This document shows positions 7,284 to 16,733 of a stretch of 42,526 bases of DNA, in pieces; within the stretch, counting starts at the first letter, position 1; every line of letters starts with the position of its first letter. The stretch is taken from IMG/VR virus record IMGVR_UViG_3300027833_000093, positions 1-42,526 of that record; one strand, written 5' to 3'. The DNA comes from a virus. The notes under the pieces were generated by a model that worked only from the letters and a program-made list of their open reading frames with translations, was not told the origin of the DNA and made no database searches. The position numbers and the translations under genes are program-made.

Positions 7284-7679
7284 TTAAAAGGCCCCTGCGT
7301 CAAGCGTATCATCGTCCTCTGCAACAACTAGGTTAGTCCATGCAAAAACTCCTGCGCTTATTTCGCGGTATACTTTGATTTCATTGTCATCCTCGTCATA
7401 CCACGTATCACCCTCTGAAACATTTGTTCCTGTAGGCGTATCGGTAGACCGAAAGTCTTGATCTGCTAGTTGTTCTATGGCAGTCTGTAAGTTTGTTGCT
7501 GTTACTGTTCCATGAGGAACGTATGAGATACCGGCAGCTGTTGCTAAACCAATGGCAATACCTCTGGCCTCTACTAAAGTAGTATCTGTGCTAATATCTA
7601 ACGATACAGCCTCTGAAGAAGAGGCTGTAATAGTCGTGACATTTTCGGATACAGTAATATTAGTAGTAATATCAGACAC
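7284..7679 (-). CDS. short tail/baseplate protein ending LDAGAF
   Basis: A 131-residue acidic protein without cysteine, signal peptide or membrane segment. The N-terminal third is Ser/Thr-rich beta-type sequence. The C-terminal half has GDTWYDEDDNEIKVYRE, a phrase common in small phage tail proteins that describes a beta-hairpin with conserved aromatics, and then the acidic tail ending LDAGAF, which resembles the LDGGTF end of the following fibre. Its ATG overlaps the stop of the preceding gene by one base, so the two are translationally coupled. It probably belongs to the baseplate-to-fibre junction; the exact role is not known. Confidence 0.65.
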   Translation of the reverse strand: MSDITTNITVSENVTTITASSSEAVSLDISTDTTLVEARGIAIGLATAAGISYVPHGTVTATNLQTAIEQLADQDFRSTDTPTGTNVSEGDTWYDEDDNEIKVYREISAGVFAWTNLVVAEDDDTLDAGAF

Positions 7680-8017
7680 TATCTTGTAACTCCTTGGTTA
7701 AGGGTCACTGACCCGTGTAAAAGTTTTTGTACAATATTATCACTTGTTGTAAAGATCTCTAGATCATACTGATAAGTACCTGCAGCTATCGCATTCGTAA
7801 CGCTGTTCGATAGGCTCATCTGAATTTTACCATTTGTGGGTGTGGGAATATTGCACGTAAACGTAGCCGTTAAAGTAGTCGAAGACTTAGTCGGTCTTAG
7901 CTGGGCACGTGCAGAGTACCCGGTCAAGTTTTTAACTGTTCCGGACTCAGATACTGTAAACTCTAACGCAAAGTCGGAACCTTGGTCAATAACTAGGTCG
8001 TAGCGGGCTGCTGTCAT
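7679..8017 (-). CDS. small baseplate protein with BppU-like N-terminal fold
   Basis: A 112-residue protein: an opening beta strand (YDLVIDQGSDFALEFTV), then VKNLTGYSARAQLRP, then a closing region (GTYQYDLEIFTTSD). This order is typical of the small immunoglobulin-like domain in phage baseplate upper proteins and in short marine phage tail proteins. It is the first gene behind the 8038-8066 promoter and has GGAG seven bases before its ATG. Its stop overlaps the next start. The family assignment is from pattern memory. Confidence 0.65.
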   Translation of the reverse strand: MTAARYDLVIDQGSDFALEFTVSESGTVKNLTGYSARAQLRPTKSSTTLTATFTCNIPTPTNGKIQMSLSNSVTNAIAAGTYQYDLEIFTTSDNIVQKLLHGSVTLNQGVTR

Positions 8018-8037: not shown

Positions 8038-8066
8038 ATTATAGCCAAATTGAGGTGCTATGTCAA
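8038..8066 (-). promoter_or_regulatory. perfect-consensus sigma-70 promoter for the left fibre unit
   Basis: TTGACA (8066-8061), 17-bp spacer, TATAAT (8043-8038), preceded by an A-rich tract on the minus strand. Predicted start near 8031 leaves a leader of about 14 bases before the ATG at 8017. The spacer begins TAGCACCTC, resembling the spacers of several other late promoters here. Confidence 0.92.
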
Positions 8067-8087: not shown

Positions 8088-8633
8088 CTACCTCCATCGA
8101 GGGCCTTCGAGCCAGTCCACCAAGGAGTATCTAACTCCATCTGTTATCTCTGTTACTCTATGTGGCAAATAACTAGGAAAAACTAAAATAGATCCCTGAG
8201 TTCTGAAATTAACAGGGGTTTCTACATCTTGAAACTGAAAGTCTCCGCCCTGATAAGTGGTAGGGTCACTAAGTTGTATAACTACTGATAACTTACGATC
8301 ATACATAGATCCACCCTGCCAATTAACATCATGATGCCAGTTGTAAAAAGAACCTTTAGAGTATTCTCCAAACTGAGCATCAGGTACATAGTCTACATCA
8401 AAGTTAAAAGTAGATCTGTTTGCTTCAAATCCGTAATACTGTATTAATTTTTTAATTTCAGAATTATCTGTAAATCCTAGTTTAGTTTTTCTAACTTCAG
8501 AATTAGGTTTATGGTCGTTATCAGAAAAAATTGTACCGTCTTTAAGAGTAAGCTCTTCTTTGCACTCTTGTATTAATTTTTCGCATATTCTAGGGTGTAT
8601 CTTACCTTCCCATAGCTGCCATGCTTGTCTCAT
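8088..8633 (-). CDS. 2OG-Fe(II) oxygenase, prolyl-4-hydroxylase / PKHD type
   Basis: A 181-residue protein with the full set of metal and cosubstrate residues of the 2-oxoglutarate/Fe(II) double-stranded beta-helix family. The iron triad is H100-x-D102 (in YNWHHDVNW) with distal H158 (PHRV), and R168 (GVRYSL) would bind 2-oxoglutarate. The phrase YQGGDFQF before the distal histidine is typical of the prolyl-4-hydroxylase/PKHD branch. The length is that of a single catalytic domain, with no signal peptide. Its start overlaps the stop of the next oxygenase by four bases (ATGA), and both sit directly downstream of the collagen-like hub gene. Hydroxylation of a virion protein is inferred; a host substrate or nucleobase is possible. 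It is the last gene before the next promoter. Confidence 0.85.
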   Translation of the reverse strand: MRQAWQLWEGKIHPRICEKLIQECKEELTLKDGTIFSDNDHKPNSEVRKTKLGFTDNSEIKKLIQYYGFEANRSTFNFDVDYVPDAQFGEYSKGSFYNWHHDVNWQGGSMYDRKLSVVIQLSDPTTYQGGDFQFQDVETPVNFRTQGSILVFPSYLPHRVTEITDGVRYSLVDWLEGPRWR

Positions 8634-9181
8634 TGTTCGTATCCTTGTGTGTTGAAGAAAAAAGTTTGAAAAAGCCTTCCATCGTGTTTATCTGTACCAA
8701 AGCCTGGAAGAACGCTACGATGGTATTGAGTTGCTTTATAGATTACTAAACGATTATAAACATTTCCTGCAAAGCTTAATAGTTCCCAGTTGTTCATGTC
8801 TTGATCCGTTTCCTCGCCTTGCGTACAGTCAGAGATACCACTTTCTTTATGTCTATAGATACCTGTGCCGGACTCTAAAGGAGCATCTGGTGTCAAGTAT
8901 AGCACTGCTGCATATTCTGTTTTATCATGATGAACCCAAGTAGACGCATCCTCTGTAGTATACTGGTAAGAAGTATTGTACTCCGAGGGCCAGTAGCTTA
9001 TCTTTTTATCTATAAGATTTTCAAAAAAAGTTTTTAAATACTCTGATTGTTTAGCAGGTTCAGGGCTAGTTCTTAGCCCTGGGTAGTTCCCGCTTATATC
9101 AAACTCCTGCTTTAAAGCTTCTTCTCTTACTTGATCTACATTATTGTAGAAATTATCAAAAATTAAAAAATTATTATTCAT
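8630..9181 (-). CDS. 2OG-Fe(II) oxygenase-like protein (DUF6445-like)
   Basis: A 183-residue protein with a second, different 2OG-Fe(II) oxygenase signature. H84-x-D86 (in WVHHDKTEYAAVLYL) supplies two iron ligands, H154 (TQYHRS) the third, and R169 (DGRLFQTFFFN) the probable 2-oxoglutarate contact. Overall sequence order matches the DUF6445 family of phage and marine bacterial proteins as I remember it. Its ATG shares one base with the hub gene's stop, so it is coupled to a 2268-residue collagen-like protein, and its end overlaps the prolyl-hydroxylase-like gene. The two oxygenases differ too much to be a simple recent duplication. The substrate is unknown. Confidence 0.75.
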   Translation of the reverse strand: MNNNFLIFDNFYNNVDQVREEALKQEFDISGNYPGLRTSPEPAKQSEYLKTFFENLIDKKISYWPSEYNTSYQYTTEDASTWVHHDKTEYAAVLYLTPDAPLESGTGIYRHKESGISDCTQGEETDQDMNNWELLSFAGNVYNRLVIYKATQYHRSVLPGFGTDKHDGRLFQTFFFNTQGYEQ

Positions 9182-12100
9182 TATAGCTGTCCTATTCTTA
9201 CTCTTAATGTTGTTCCAGAATAAATATCTATTCTGCCGTTTGTTCCGTCCATTTTTATTGACCCACTTGCTCCGGGCTTTGTAACTCTTTGATATTCTGT
9301 AAAAGTTGTGCCGCTTCCTGAGTATTCAAAAGCTCTATCAGTAGGTATATGCCAGTAAACATCTCCAGATACTGCAGGTGATTTTAATGCTTCAATAGTT
9401 GATTTCTTTACAGAGTCAGCTGCGGGGGAAGTGCCACTAGTGTGGAATGCGATGGTCGCACCTGCGTCACCTGTAGGACCTACAGCACCTTGAGCTCCCG
9501 TACCTCCTTGAGCACCTTGAGGACCTGTAGCTCCTTGAGCTCCTTGAGGACCTGGAGGACCTACACCGCCAGTATTACCCACCCCTCCTTGAGGACCTGC
9601 AACTCCTTGAGGGCCTTGAGCACCTTGAGCTCCTTGATCTCCTACTCCTCCTTGTGGCCCTGTAGCACCTTGAGCACCTTGAGCACCTTGAGGGCCATCA
9701 TCGCCTACATCACCTTGAGGACCTGTAGCTCCTTGAGCACCTTGCGCGCCTTGCGCGCCTTGATCACCTGTTGGACCTGCGGGACCTGTAGCACCTTGAG
9801 AACCTTGAGCACCTTGAGGGCCATCATCTCCTACAGCACCTTGAGGACCTGTAGCTCCTTGAGAGCCTTGAGCACCTTGAGCACCTTGTGGACCTGTTGG
9901 ACCTGTATCTCCATCAGTACCTGCAGCACCTACTGCTCCTGTAGGACCTGTAGCACCTTGTGGACCTGTTGGACCTGCAGCACCGGCGTCTCCTTGAAGA
10001 CCTGTAGGGCCTGAAGGACCTGTAGCACCTTGAGAACCTTGAGCACCTTGAGGTCCTGCCGCACCTGTAGGACCTGCATCACCTGTCGGACCTGCGGGAC
10101 CTTGAGCACCTTGAGGGCCCTGAGCACCTTGAGCACCTTGAGCACCTGTATCCCCTGTCGGGCCAGTTTGACCTTCAGTAATTAAAGGGGCTCCAAAGCT
10201 TCCTGAAACTAGAGCGGAAGCTGTTGTTGCGGTACCAATTATAGTATGTGTTACTCCAGTGACACCACCAGAGACTTGAGTAGCATTTGCGTACCATCTA
10301 TTAGCAGTAATATTCTGCACAGCATACCAGTAAGCACCAGAAGCATTATAGAAAGTAGGAGTTATTTTTGTCATATCTGAGATAGCTGAAGAGCCGTCTG
10401 CAAATACCTGAACCCATCTAGACGTGTCGGATTGTGGGTTAGTAGAAATACCAGAGTGTGCGGACTTAGCTGCCCAAACTTTGCTATTGTAGCTTACTAC
10501 AGAGCCTATTGCATAAGATGCTCCGCTGCTCCAGGCACTAATACTAGGGGCTGAGTTAAGTACTGTTTTAGATGCAGCTGAGTAGTATAAAAACGCACTA
10601 AAACCGTCCGGCCCTGCCGAACCTGCTGCTCCTGCCGCACCTGTAGGACCCTGCACTCCTCCACTACCTTGAGGCCCTTGAGCACCTTGAGCGCCTTGGT
10701 CTCCTTGAGGGCCTGCATCTCCTGTTGGACCTGAAGGACCTGTAGAACCTTGAGCACCTTGAGCACCTTGAGCACCTTGAGCACCTGTATCACCTTGCGG
10801 TCCTGTAGGGCCTGCTGCTCCTGTCGGTCCTGCTGGTCCATCCGGACCTGCTACACCTTGAGCGCCTTGGTCTCCTTGAGGGCCTACTCCACCTGTTGGG
10901 CCTGAAGGACCTGTAGCACCTTGAGCACCTTGAGCGCCTTGTGGACCCGTATCACCTGTTGGACCTGAAGGACCTGCTACACCTTGAGCACCTTGATCTC
11001 CTTGAGGACCTACCGAACCTGTTGGACCTGAAGGACCTTGAGCACCTTGATCTCCGTCTTCTCCAGCAGGTCCTACTCCACCTGTTGGGCCTGAAGGACC
11101 TTGAGCACCTTGAGCACCTTGAGCGCCTTGTGGACCCGTATCACCTGTTGGACCTGAAGGACCCGTTATACCTTGAGCACCTTGTGGACCTTGTGGACCT
11201 GTGTCTCCGTCGGGGCCTACAGGTCCTTGAGGACCTGCTGCTCCTTGAGCACCTTGTGGACCTTGTCCACCTACAGGACCTTGAGGACCTTGGGGACCTT
11301 GGGGACCTTCAGGAGACACACTTAAAGTTTGTACGCGTGTAAAAGTTAGGTCGTTTCCTAAGCTATCAGTAACAATTATATTTATAACTACATTACCCGA
11401 AGCTCCATTTATTGCAGTTATAGGTGCTAAAGTGTAAAAGTTTGAACCAGTTGTTATAGATCCTAAAGTAACATTGCTGGGGGTTACACTCGATACTCTA
11501 AAAGAGGGGAGAGTATAAGCAGATGTATCGTCATAAGCTATTTGAGTACCTCCAATACTAACTGTAAGTGTAGTACCTGTACTAGAAAAGTCAAGAGAAC
11601 CACTGGAAGTAGGGATGCTAACATTATCATTAGTTAGATTTATGTTTATAGCATCCAAGGCTCCATTAGAGGTTCCTTCTATTCCTCCTGTGGCGCTTGA
11701 AGGTTCATATGCTGAAAATACTTGTCTGCTTGCTGAGTTGCTTGGAGCAACATTTACAGCATACCGAATCCAGTAATAGTTTGTTGTGGTTCCCTCTCCG
11801 ATTACAGGATCGGTATAAGTATTACCTTGAGAAGTGCCTATAAGATTTAAGGAACTGTGCCCTCTATCGTTTACGGACGCTTTCCAGATTTCTGTAGTAT
11901 AGGTAGCTGGATTAAAGTTTGAAGCATTAACCCAGTTTAACTCAACACCTCCTCTGTTAGTAGTAGTTGCTGTAAGACTATTTGCATTTGGACCAGTAGG
12001 AGTTCCTACTGGTGCAGTTACAGGGGCAGGAGCTGAAACAATGCTGCCTTCTGATACTTCAACAGTATCAATTAAGTATGCATTCTCTTCGTGCTCTTCT

Positions 12101-15100
12101 GCCGTTACTTGAACCAAGCAATTTGCATTAATACTTAGGTTTGTAATACGATATATTTTATTCGTCCACCCAAATCGAGGATATGATATACGAATAAGGT
12201 CGCCCGCTAAAAGCAGTACGCCTCTCGGAGCTATAGTAAAGTTGACTTTTACAGAAGCTCTAGACTCGTCTAGATACTGTTTGGCATTCATTCGAGCATT
12301 AAAATAGTTGGTAACGTAAGGAGCTTTTACGCTTCCCTTCTTAGGAACCATTCTATCTTCTTTTAGATACTTAGAATTAAACATCATTATGCTACGACCT
12401 TCAAATCTATTTTGAGGATCGTTAATTCCTACATCTACTTGGTTATAAGTACCTTTTTGTCCTGCGTCCTGTACATCTATTTTTCCAATAATGTCAGTTT
12501 CATTTATGTCTTCTACGATATAGGTTTCGGAGCCAACAGTGATACTTGTAGTAGATTCTGCTCCTTTCTTCAAAGCCAAAGAGTACTTACCTGCAGAGTA
12601 CCTTAACATTCCGTTAAAGTGCCCAAGCATACTATTAATATTACTGAATATAGACTTAGAAGTGTCAAGAGTAACGTTTGTTTGGTGGCGTGTAGCATGT
12701 CTCTGATTTTGAGACTCCCACCCTAAGTATCTCCAATATTTAACATCGTCAGAATCATATAAACTATAACCACTAGAGTATCTTAGTGAGGAGTATGTTT
12801 TGACAACAGGATCTCCGTCAAAGGTATGTCTGTTTTTGTAAGTTGCATCAGAGTTTCTATTTATATCTACAGCTAAAGTAGAAGAGCCTGACCCCGATAC
12901 TTTAGTAATTGTTAAGGACGTTTTAAAGTCACTGCTACCTGAAGACGCTGGCTCAGAAACAGTACTTGCACTACCACTATGCTCATACAGTCTTCCATTA
13001 TGGTAGTATAAATCTTCATCAGCGAATACTTTCCAATCTGCCCATCTTGTTACTATCTTGCCTAAAACGTTTTCAAAAACAACGCTGCGTCTAGTATTGC
13101 CGTCTATAGTAACAGCATCTCCAACGCTTTTTACTGTACCTTGCCATGCTGTTCCGTAGGAAGAGCTAGAAGTTGCATACTTATACACATCTCCTACAAC
13201 AGGTTCATTTGAACCTACCAAAAGAGTTACATTAGATTGAGTATCACAAGCTCTTGCTGTTTGAAAAAAGCTTTCGGCATCAAGATCCTGATCTAAAGAT
13301 AGGTTTCTTCCATATCTATCGCTCTGCATATAGTCTAAGAGTTGCATAGCAGGGTTGTTAGTAACTCTTAAGTCGCCGCCCTGTGATCCTATAATTTTAT
13401 AGCTATCGCCTTGCTTCGGTAAAAACTCAAAAGGAGTATCTACTAAAACTGTCTTGCTGCTACCGTCATAATCAACAATATTTCTTCTTTGAGTTCTTAT
13501 CTCTCCGCTTCCAAGAGTAGTAGAAACTTCAATATCCATACCGTTATAGGCGTTAGCTGTGCCGGAAGCACTGCTATTTAGTTTTAAGCTTTTAGCCGCA
13601 ACTACAAAATCGCCTATTATTGTTGAAGCACTTGTTTGGGTTTCACCAACATTTGCAAGACTTCCACTGCTTACACTATCTGCAACAAACTGATTTAAAA
13701 GCGTAGGAGAAAACTCTTCTGTTAAGCTCTCGATAATACTAAAAGGTCTGTCAGTTGGAAAAGCAAGAAGAGCTGCATGTACGTCACTACTGCTACTAAT
13801 AGCAATATTAATACCGCCACCAGAATTATTACTTACTCCGGTAATTGCAGTCGCTAAAGTTGTGGGTAGCGTTCCTGACTGCTCAACAGCATCGTGAGAT
13901 ACTAAATGCAGTGTATTTGTACCGTCGGTTATGTAGAATTTCTTGAAAGCTACATCGGTTGGATTACTAGTAAACTGTATTCGAGCTTCTTTGACTAGCT
14001 TACCTATAGGGGAAATTTGATAAATATCTTTTACAGTCGCAGTACCGATGGTAACGTCACTTTGACCAGAAACCTCGCCTTTGACAGTTACGCTCTGGCC
14101 TATCTGAAAATTAGTAATACTTTCGCCCGTAACCGAAGAATCTAATTCAAAAGCGTGATCATAGTTATAGCAGGGCACGCCCTTTCCTCGAACAACAAAG
14201 TCGAGAGTAGGTATAGTAGTCTCCCCTTCGCCAATAGTGTACTCAACAACCATATAGGCTGTATCTAAAAGTCTGTGGTTTGCTCCCCAGTAAGGCTCTG
14301 AGCCTTGGTAATACTCGTTTCCTACTTTAAAGTTATCAACATTGGATAGAAGCATATCTGCTGCTTTCTGATCTGATTTACCAGAAAAGAACTGTGCTTT
14401 TGCATCTATAGGAGTTGAAAAAGTAATGCCTTTACCATGAGTAATACCAAAACCGTTTGTATCTTCTTGAAATACAGGAGTATTATTGTTAGTACTTTGA
14501 TAGGCTGAGTAACTATACTGAGCTTCCCAAGCTGCTCCAATTTCATTCCAGTCATTGCCTAAAGAGCCTTGAGCTTGTGTTGTGCCTGTTGCATACTGAA
14601 CAGTACCACCTACTATTGTGCCTCCCAATAGAGTATCACCTCTATCCATTCTACCAGCGCATAAAACATCAATAGTGTTTTCTGCAGTTTGAGTGGCTCT
14701 AGTATCATTATCATTTTTATCTATACAAATAGAAGTTGTATCATCGAAATACATATCGTAGATACCTGCTACTTCCCCTTCACATATTGCATAAGCGACA
14801 AAAACTTTACGAGAATCATTGGCCAGCGTATCTACAAAAACGGGAATACTATCAATCTTATTAACGCCATAGATAACAGGAAGATATTTTGCATCTAAGT
14901 TAAAGCGTAGATCTGCCTCTCTGTCCACTTCGACTTGATACTCAATCTGCTTGTACTTTTTCATACCAGCCCAGTTTCGCTTCATTTTTAACTTAGTTTT
15001 AGTTTCTTTAATTTGATAAATTGATACTAAGTTAATGGCTTGCTCACTGTGTAGAAAGCCCAGGTCTCCTGCATATGCGGGTCGGATTGCAGATAAAGGA

Positions 15101-15987
15101 CTTGCTTTGTTATTTTCGTCTAAAGCTCTATGAGAGCCGTCAGAAGTAATTCGTCCTTGTACTCGAGAAAAGTCTCCCCAGTGGCTAGTAAGTGTCCACG
15201 TTATCATAGAGGATTTTGAGGGGTCTTCACTGATTTTTCCTGAACCAATGATACCCTTAAAGATTAAGTAGGGCTCACCTATAATAGAGCCTACAGGATA
15301 TACTGTGCCGTCTATAGTTTCTTCTTCTACTCGAAGATGTGTCTTGTAAACAAAAACATCTCTATTTAGATATTTTGCATAAGTAGAGTTAGGGCTAGAG
15401 TCTCTTTCTGTAATTATACCTTCAATTTCTGGACTAGCGAAGGTCAGAGTTAAGGACTGTCCAGAGCCTTGTCCCATAGTAGTATTCTGAGGGGTTATAT
15501 TGGCTCTTGTATTATTAAGTTCAAAACTTTCGATTCTTATGCTTTTTCCGTCATTTAAACCTCCTGTAACTGTTATTACATCTCCCTCTCGAAAACCTTC
15601 GTCAACTAAGTCTTTAGTTCCTGTAAGGGTTCCTGAAGTTACGGTATATGTATCAGATACAGTAGTGCTTAAAGCAGCAGCAGAAAGTTGTAAAGACATA
15701 CTAGTAGTCTTGGCTTCAATGGTTTCTGTGATAGAACCCACGGAGCGAATTTTACTTGCTATGTAAGTTTGATCGCCATTGGCTACTCCTAAAGCTGTGG
15801 TAGATCCGTCATTAAAAACTATGTCGTAAGAGCCATCGCTCAAATATACATAGTCTTCAGGTCTACGACCACTTTTACCTGTAGGGGTTAGTAAAGGTTT
15901 TTCAAACTTTACTAGGTGTGCATAAGTAAAAGGCTTTTCTGCAAGCAAAGAAGCCTTTGTAGTATCATTTATATTTCTAACGCCCAT
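9181..15987 (-). CDS. tail hub / central tail protein with fibronectin III, collagen-like and CBM-like parts
   Basis: At 2268 residues this is the largest protein in the window. Residues 1 to about 1320 form the tail-tip hub, beginning [20 protein letters not shown], in the place where J-like or tail-associated proteins lie. About 1330-1430 is a fibronectin type III domain ([20 protein letters not shown]); 1435-1555 is immunoglobulin-like. Residues about 1560-1797 and 1939-2174 are Gly-X-Y collagen-like repeats ([15 protein letters not shown]). Between them, about 1800-1935 holds a stretch like carbohydrate-binding module 5/12 ([17 protein letters not shown]). The last 90 residues end [19 protein letters not shown]. 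Its start overlaps the distal tail gene's stop (TAATG). Probable role: tail tip and central fibre that contacts the cell. Pro is almost always in the X position of the repeats; I see one GPP. Confidence 0.85.
9460..11315 (-). repeat. two collagen-like Gly-X-Y repeat blocks
   Basis: Short tandem 9-bp-based repeats, mostly versions of GGTGCTCAAGGTGCTCAAGG, encode Gly-X-Y triplets in two blocks (about 10600-11315 and 9460-10170) separated by about 430 bases of non-repeat coding sequence. The regular codon pattern also creates open shadow frames on both strands. Triplet count is likely to vary by slippage or recombination. Confidence 0.92.
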
Positions 15988-16733
15988 TATTGTACTTCCT
16001 CCAGATTGAGACTGAACTTGAATAAGTTATCTGTGTTTAATGAATATTCTTGCACATCACCTTTAATAACTACTCTCATTAAAGGATTTAAGAAGACAAA
16101 ATCGTCCCCTGCAAATATCCTTTTAGAAAGTGGAGGAGTAAAATGTACGCGTACTTGCGCTGTAGACGGCTGAGTAAGAGCACTGTGATAATCAGCGTTT
16201 GTCTCTACTCGAGTAACCATATAAGCTTTGTTGTGGTTGGAGTTCGAACTAGCAATATGAAACATATCTCCTGGAAGAGGGGTACCGTTTGAGCTTGCTG
16301 TATATCCTGAGCTTTTTCCAATAAGTACAGAAGTAGTTCCGGGCTGTGTTGTTGCAGCAACATCTAAATGTCTAACTGTACCGCCTCCATTAAGAATCCA
16401 AGTATGGAAACTTGCACTTTTTGGCGTTCGATATTGAGGTAAAGAAACGAAAAAAGGATGTATCGGTCCGCCTCTCTGTAGTAGAAAAGTATACAAAGGG
16501 TCAAAGTCTTCACGAGTCATAGGGTTATAAGATATATTAGCATCCCAAGAGTGGTAGTTAATTCTACGGGCAATTAGTCTGCCTGAGTTTGTTCTATCTC
16601 TCATAGCCGGTTGTTTAGAAGTTAGCGACACAGAAGCAAAACCTGCTGAAGAGCTGCCTGCAACTTGTCCTGCATCCCCAATAGTATTATTGGGGTCGGG
16701 TAGTATGTTTTGAAAATTTGTAAAAGATGCCAT
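15987..16733 (-). CDS. distal tail / tail-tip adaptor protein
   Basis: A 248-residue protein between the tape measure and the hub, the usual place of a distal tail protein. Visible: [30 protein letters not shown], and [13 protein letters not shown], then a mid-part with an insertion and a C-terminal strand [13 protein letters not shown]. The phrase about treating a region as a single line scan (T-R-E-D-F-D-P-L) is typical of proteins named phage tail protein in marine siphoviruses. Both ends overlap neighbours by one base (TAATG), showing tight coupling with the tape measure and the hub. A ring-forming connector between tube and hub is inferred from order. Confidence 0.65.

Follow-up and report, generated by a model that had tools for sequence, protein, structure and literature searches.

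A collagen-like phage tail hub gene in an overlapping series with genes for two predicted 2-oxoglutarate oxygenases, and the correspondence of such enzymes with Gly-X-Y repeats in aquatic phages

The window analyzed here is a 42,526-nucleotide stretch of phage DNA, positions 1–42,526 of IMG/VR virus record IMGVR_UViG_3300027833_000093. It contains a gene for a tail hub protein with collagen-like domains, followed by genes for two predicted oxygenases, and the relationship between these three genes is the subject of this analysis. All three are on the minus strand. The hub open reading frame (ORF; 9181–15987) encodes 2268 amino acids (aa), oxygenase 1 (8630–9181) is a 183-aa member of family DUF6445 (PF20043), and oxygenase 2 (8088–8633) is a 181-aa prolyl-4-hydroxylase (P4H)-like member (PF13640, phrog_61) of the 2-oxoglutarate (2OG)-Fe(II) oxygenases. 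The hub stop and the DUF6445 start have one nucleotide in common (TAATG), and the DUF6445 stop and the P4H start have four (ATGA), in agreement with the overlaps reported in a first-pass annotation of this DNA. These overlaps suggest that the three genes are on one transcript. A perfect match to the sigma-70-like promoter consensus (TTGACA-17-TATAAT, consensus match only) lies at 8066–8038 on the minus strand, just 3’ of the P4H gene and 5’ of a gene for a 112-aa LtfC-like protein (7679–8017, minus; PF23926, weak; phrog_1084; phrog_3304, L-shaped tail fibre assembly). Its position fits a scheme in which the cassette is part of the hub unit and the LtfC-like gene has a promoter of its own.

The hub is homologous to T5 pb3 and the J-type hubs (phrog_31, phrog_819), and the phage proteins it matches are annotated as ‘central tail fiber J’ or ‘putative baseplate hub protein’. 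Immediately 5’ of it is a gene for a T5 pb9-like distal tail protein (15987–16733, minus; phrog_1302, 2e-12; PF21425, weak, below cut-off), and homology together with such an upstream gene marks a hub of the pb3/J type. Eight matches to the hub were found among genome contigs – these are short or medium in length and come from marine bins, and none names a host.

The N-terminal ca. 1300 aa of the hub are pb3/J-like, and are followed by a linker, two collagen-like blocks and a short C-terminal tip. Block 1 (hub aa 1561–1797; 10597–11307, minus) has 79 Gly-X-Y triplets and block 2 (aa 1939–2178; 9454–10173, minus) has 80, so the two long blocks noted in the first-pass annotation are borne out by the count. 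Both are uninterrupted and far longer than expected by chance, and the Pfam Collagen model (E=1.7e-57) matches the hub in 6 stretches, including block 1. The non-collagen segment between them (aa 1798–1938; 10174–10596, minus) contains a weak CBM_5_12-like match at aa 1818–1845, below cut-off. The X position is Pro in 62 of 159 triplets (39%) and Ala in 33%; the Y position is Gln in 73 (about 45–46%), Thr in 38 (24%), Ala in 19 and Pro in only one. There is one GPP triplet, and Lys does not occur. Thus the proline is nearly all at X, as first described, and the hub has the long, unbroken, X-Pro-rich repeat of a collagen-like protein.

The DUF6445 protein matches its family models well (PF20043, E=5.9e-36; phrog_1644, 2.1e-13), and its H84-x-D86...H154...R169 motif is invariant across 16 sequences. 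The predicted model, with a predicted local distance difference test (pLDDT) score of 94.3, has fold matches to OGFOD1, PHD2 and prolyl-4-hydroxylases (probability 1.0). Because of these fold matches and the invariant motif, the DUF6445 protein is, as modelled, a 2OG-Fe(II) oxygenase, having the double-stranded beta-helix and H-x-D...H...R/K that define the superfamily. The label given to DUF6445 proteins in PHROGs (phrog_1644) and RefSeq, ‘minor coat protein’, is at odds with this fold and motif. Other phage 2OG oxygenases are mislabelled as well: some are called ‘ferrochelatase’, and some belong to PHROGs named ‘DNA endonuclease V’. In two groups of collagen-tailed phages a DUF7936 gene (PF25590) lies beside the DUF6445 gene (locus L014, 10470–10880; L062, 9544–9888; and their relatives; L numbers denote the loci compared here). 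In seven loci (L056, L057, L059 and L063–L066), a collagen-like gene is preceded by a pair of DUF6445 genes in tandem or nearly so; its repeats, Gly-Leu-Gln and Gly-Asp-Ile, contain very little Pro or Lys.

The P4H-like protein matches PF13640 (E=7.9e-14), and H100-x-D102...H158...R168 is invariant across 8 sequences, so both oxygenases have the complete sites attributed to them at first reading. The P4H-like protein also has the beta-helix of the superfamily in its predicted model. It aligns with the viral collagen prolyl hydroxylase of PBCV-1 (vCPH, 5c5t) by profile (E=5.8e-8) and by fold (template modelling score 0.70, ca. 17% identity in the fold alignment). PKHD-type hydroxylases (PiuC, 3dkq) outscore 5c5t by sequence, while the top fold match is the Pseudomonas putida P4H in complex with EF-Tu; PHD2 is also matched. 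The P. putida enzyme modifies EF-Tu, and from this best match it could be argued that the true substrate of the window enzymes is a different protein, for instance a translation factor of the host, or a surface such as the host glycans, and that co-expression is their sole tie to the tail. This is highly improbable, as it leaves unexplained both the dependence on Gly-X-Y and the correspondence with repeat composition described below.

The hub family provides a natural experiment. Searches with single sequences (the P4H, a lysyl hydroxylase fusion described below, and the hub N-terminus) returned 1–3 loci each, and alignments were therefore used as queries. An alignment of the hub N-terminus, with the collagen part excluded, retrieved 80 loci, in 43 of which the region after the hub was readable and was coded by hand. 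Hubs that lack Gly-X-Y usually have the LtfC-like gene directly next to them. If Gly-X-Y is present, a cassette lies between the hub and the LtfC-like gene, which forms a conserved right border. The contents of this slot vary – DUF6445 (with or without DUF7936) and P4H; DUF6445 and glycosyltransferase (GT) family GT2; P4H alone; a PF13661 oxygenase with or without a Capsule_synth-like protein; GT4; or GT25 and PLOD-GT.

A 2OG oxygenase or glycosyltransferase is beside the hub in 12 of 14 loci with at least 15 triplets, and in 3 of 28 with fewer (Fisher p=3e-6; this count leaves out one enzyme-free row that the hub tree includes). Related loci are not independent, so pairs from the hub tree were used as well. 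With a trait of at least 6 triplets, there are 10 independent pairs, of which 8 are concordant for the enzyme and none discordant (p=0.008). With at least 15 triplets, 5 are concordant, none discordant and 3 show no difference (p about 0.06). Both cut-offs are given because 6 was chosen after three loci with 7 triplets and an oxygenase (L094, L102 and L126) had been seen.

A further comparison is with L092, whose hub is 86% identical to that of the window over the first 1300 residues but has a collagen domain of its own. In its slot, DUF6445 and P4H are replaced by an unrelated PF13661 2OG oxygenase and a Capsule_synth-like protein, and only 6% of its Y positions are Gln, against 45% in the window.

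Several other features were seen next to hubs of this family. An antisense 2OG oxygenase directly follows the 7-triplet hub in two loci (L094, 15760–16464; L102, 15745–16374, minus). Hint/intein-like segments are present at the C-terminus of the L126 hub and directly after the hub in L150 (15619–16620). GNAT-like genes fill the hub-adjacent slot in L126 and L158.

Relatives of DUF6445 led to phages in which a Gly-X-Lys collagen gene is followed by DUF6445, a fusion protein of ca. 750 aa, and a P4H homologous to that of the window. The fusion consists of GT4, GT25 and a PLOD-like lysyl hydroxylase (LH) domain. The last domain of the fusion is similar to mimivirus L230 (2.4e-27) and human LH3 (4.5e-25), and the GT25 part to human COLGALT1 (3e-16). 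Such fusions are found in L060, L062, L067, L071, L072, L076, L079 and L173–L241, and in most cases a Gly-X-Lys collagen gene lies upstream. Among non-redundant loci with an LH domain and at least 4 kb visible upstream, 29 of 30 carry a same-strand Gly-X-Y gene; this count includes the Gly-Ser-Ser/Gly-Thr-Ser loci L225, L237 and L239, which are not collagen proper. In the repeats of LH loci, Y is the main position of Lys, and X hardly ever has it. Animal lysyl hydroxylases act on Lys at Y.

The best relatives of the window P4H within the phage collection are in two Synechococcus phage isolates, S-CAM9 (L242, 2540–11396) and S-PRM1 (L243, 2558–11399). The collagen-like tail fibre of these phages has 59 Gly-X-Y triplets; each phage also encodes two 2OG oxygenases and a GT25-PLOD-GT-LH protein of 613–614 aa that is annotated as ‘hypothetical protein’. 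In L225, L227, L237 and L239, long Gly-Ser-Ser/Gly-Thr-Ser repeats lie beside GT25-LH proteins or a GT4 relative, and these may be a glycosylated repeat.

Each X and Y residue was tested against the presence of each enzyme, at first in 51 non-redundant collagen-like genes. The top correlates were Y-Lys for LH (p=2e-8), Y-Gln for DUF6445 (p=7e-5) and X-Pro for P4H (p=0.002). The first of these serves as a positive control because the specificity of lysyl hydroxylase is already known. In refined tests the Gly-Ser-Ser/Gly-Thr-Ser repeats of L225, L227, L237 and L239 were not treated as collagen. With two non-collagen repeats removed, Y-Gln was still first for DUF6445, a link that also held when genes with LH and genes lacking it were each taken alone; for P4H, scarcity of Ile at X came narrowly ahead of X-Pro.

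The match was partly repeated in 45 new collagen genes (44 usable), which came from loci retrieved later by oxygenase queries and thus not drawn at random: one-sided p values were 2e-6 for DUF6445/Y-Gln, 7e-5 for P4H/X-Pro, 1e-5 for P4H/Y-Thr and 1e-7 for LH/Y-Lys. Since the later loci were found by oxygenase queries, those without DUF6445 are mostly P4H loci. Across 93 genes, the median Y-Gln is 53% where DUF6445 is the only enzyme, and the median Y-Lys is 55% where LH is the only one. Genes with P4H only have a median of 64% X-Pro and 60% Y-Thr. In the class to which the window belongs, with both DUF6445 and P4H, the medians are 30% Y-Gln, 28% Y-Thr and 49% X-Pro; the window repeat is of the type expected for a carrier of these two enzymes. 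Genes with all three enzymes have a mixed repeat composition. These comparisons, which drew on hundreds of related viruses, suggest that the enzyme set of a phage is fitted to the particular collagen-like repeat of that phage, as animal enzymes are to animal collagen.

The 93 genes are not independent – they form 21 clusters, two of which hold 70 of them, and this reduces the force of the correspondence. It might then be an inherited lineage signal, of base composition or repeat habit, with no relation to substrate; collagen repeats expand and homogenize quickly, and their composition may drift with lineage. Tested per cluster, DUF6445/Y-Gln has p=0.002 and LH/Y-Lys p=0.005, while P4H has p=0.02 for Y-Thr and p=0.07 for X-Pro. 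Contrasts inside both large clusters run in the same direction: Y-Gln is 0.19 with DUF6445 vs 0.04 without in one, and 0.48 vs 0.18 in the other; X-Pro is 0.44 vs 0.02 and 0.53 vs 0.27 for P4H; and in one of the clusters Y-Lys is 0.36 vs 0.03 for LH. One small cluster (4 vs 1 gene) runs the opposite way for P4H. The difference in Y-Gln between the window and L092, despite their 86%-identical hubs, and the agreement of the LH case with known animal specificity also speak against lineage as the sole cause, which is improbable.

The reading we favor is that the phage hydroxylates its own collagen-like tail and that the cassette is a tail collagen-modification module, to which we give a probability of roughly 0.7. 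In addition to kinship and the choice of later loci, a number of observations weigh against it. The hubs of L105 and L112 have 16–19 triplets and no enzyme, and those of L094, L102 and L126 have an enzyme with only 7 triplets. Relatives of the window P4H occur in 352 phage records, mostly of cyanophages, which are rich in 2OG oxygenases. HTVC008M, HTVC033P and AG-345-P14 each have a P4H-type oxygenase and no collagen match in the whole record, and in a large T4-like group DUF6445 adjoins the DNA polymerase gene, apart from any collagen gene. The two oxygenases could accordingly be ordinary auxiliary (moron) genes of marine phages with an unrelated substrate, placed after the hub by chance or at a recombination hot spot. 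We consider this rather improbable, given that within a single hub family the enzymes track the presence of Gly-X-Y, that the same slot is taken by unrelated enzymes of the same kind, and that the enzyme set predicts the repeat residue.

A search of whole records found collagen in 28 of 48 records with DUF6445 or P4H, including all five longer than 100 kb. Six oxygenase-bearing phage records were examined whole: three had no collagen match, one had a match below threshold, and two, S-CAM9 and S-PRM1, had clear ones. S-SSM7 was dropped as a supporting case – its DUF6445 gene is in a glycosylation island with no collagen gene within 12 kb, and the only match in a whole-genome collagen search was below cut-off. 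According to the first-pass annotation, the coupling of hub and hydroxylases would be undermined if oxygenases of these types were found mostly in phages lacking collagen. This is partly so for the broad superfamilies, as the collagen-free P4H phages and the T4-like DUF6445 group show. The coupling itself gained support from presence and absence in the hub family, replacement within the slot, the LH and GT25 homologues, and the partly repeated match of enzyme to repeat.

The composition of the window repeats proves nothing by itself. Phage and bacterial collagens believed to lack hydroxylases commonly have X-Pro and Y-Gln/Thr (PMC3368898), and composition alone was therefore dropped as proof of hydroxylation. 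For the P4H-like enzyme, the X-position Pro of Gly-Pro-X is a plausible target. It is feasible because the P4H of Bacillus anthracis accepts proline at X as well as at Y in collagen-like peptides (PMC8968730). The doubt raised in the first-pass annotation, that animal P4H acts at Y and the hub prolines are at X, was apt: the enzyme class of the window goes with X-Pro and Y-Gln/Thr, not with Y-Pro. For DUF6445, the target is possibly the Gln at Y in the hub Gly-X-Y blocks. We know of no case of peptidyl glutamine hydroxylation in collagen, a further point against this part of the scheme.

The assignments might also be wrong in detail, with the P4H-like enzyme acting on Y-Thr instead of X-Pro, or DUF6445 on a different repeat residue. 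The association of P4H with Y-Thr is about as strong as that with X-Pro, and other residues vary too in repeats linked to DUF6445. The nearest characterized folds of the P4H-like enzyme are, however, prolyl hydroxylases, and the repeats of L056–L066, with two DUF6445 copies, combine 45–59% Y-Gln with their near lack of Pro and Lys. Such a reassignment is unlikely, though its chance is appreciable.

For the module that we favor, we infer the activity, target residue, timing and benefit of the enzymes as follows. The C-terminal stalk of the hub, judging from its sequence, would form two collagen-like triple helices. The two oxygenases would be translated from the overlapping genes right after the hub and, by analogy in fold and with animal and viral hydroxylases, would hydroxylate hub chains before the trimer folds, using Fe(II), O2 and 2-oxoglutarate of the host. 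From the comparison across phages, the P4H would most likely hydroxylate X-Pro of Gly-Pro-Thr/Gln triplets, and DUF6445 would most likely act on the same repeats, with Y-Gln as its best-supported target. Modification may stabilize a triple helix poor in Y-Pro, or may provide hydroxyls for contact with the host; in relatives with adjacent glycosyltransferases, the hydroxyls could be used for O-glycosylation. A wider proposal is that aquatic phages have a combinatorial collagen-modification code, in which LH/galactosyltransferase fusions, P4H-like enzymes and DUF6445 are mixed to suit Gly-X-Lys, Gly-Pro-Thr and Gly-X-Gln repeats, with DUF6445 a new class of Y-Gln hydroxylase. This is tentative, and we would put its chances at somewhat less than even.

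If the proposed modification takes place, phages carry a modular prokaryotic form of collagen hydroxylation with a readable relation of enzyme to repeat, which would account for many of the 2OG oxygenases of marine phages that have no assigned substrate. The enzymes would be compact, bacterially expressible tools for making modified collagens, and would bear on the origin of the animal PLOD and COLGALT enzymes.

In animals, the hydroxylation of collagen is textbook knowledge, and to our knowledge viral collagen hydroxylation is known only from giant and algal viruses. Virus-encoded modification of collagen is thus not new, but we found no published description of a phage version: word searches of the literature, which covered few subscription journals and preprints and are weak evidence, returned no description of phage collagen hydroxylation or of DUF6445. 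A 2012 study stated that bacteria and viruses lack collagen prolyl hydroxylases (PMC3368898). The EPcl proteins of Escherichia coli prophages, collagen-like tail proteins, resemble the window hub in having Gly-X-Y domains with Pro preferred at X, but they were described as hydroxylase-free (PMC3368898), whereas the tail gene of the window is linked to predicted hydroxylases.

PBCV-1 vCPH and the B. anthracis P4H are, like the window P4H, small single-domain 2OG oxygenases with the P4H fold. Unlike them, the window P4H overlaps a phage tail cassette and is paired with a second oxygenase, and its substrate is a predicted one. The window DUF6445 protein is a member of phrog_1644, and its link to Gly-X-Gln collagens is proposed here. 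Mimivirus L230 is comparable in that a virus-encoded enzyme modifies the virus’s own collagen-like protein. L230, like animal LH3/PLOD together with COLGALT1, belongs to a system of collagen lysyl hydroxylation and galactosylation. The window differs from it – its repeats have no Lys, its cassette consists of DUF6445 and P4H instead of LH and GT25, and no GT25, GT_PLOD or OGFOD2-like model matched its two oxygenases or the neighbors that were scanned. The Gly-X-Lys phages, in contrast, encode homologues of LH, GT25 and PLOD-GT, and have the features of the L230/LH3-PLOD type.

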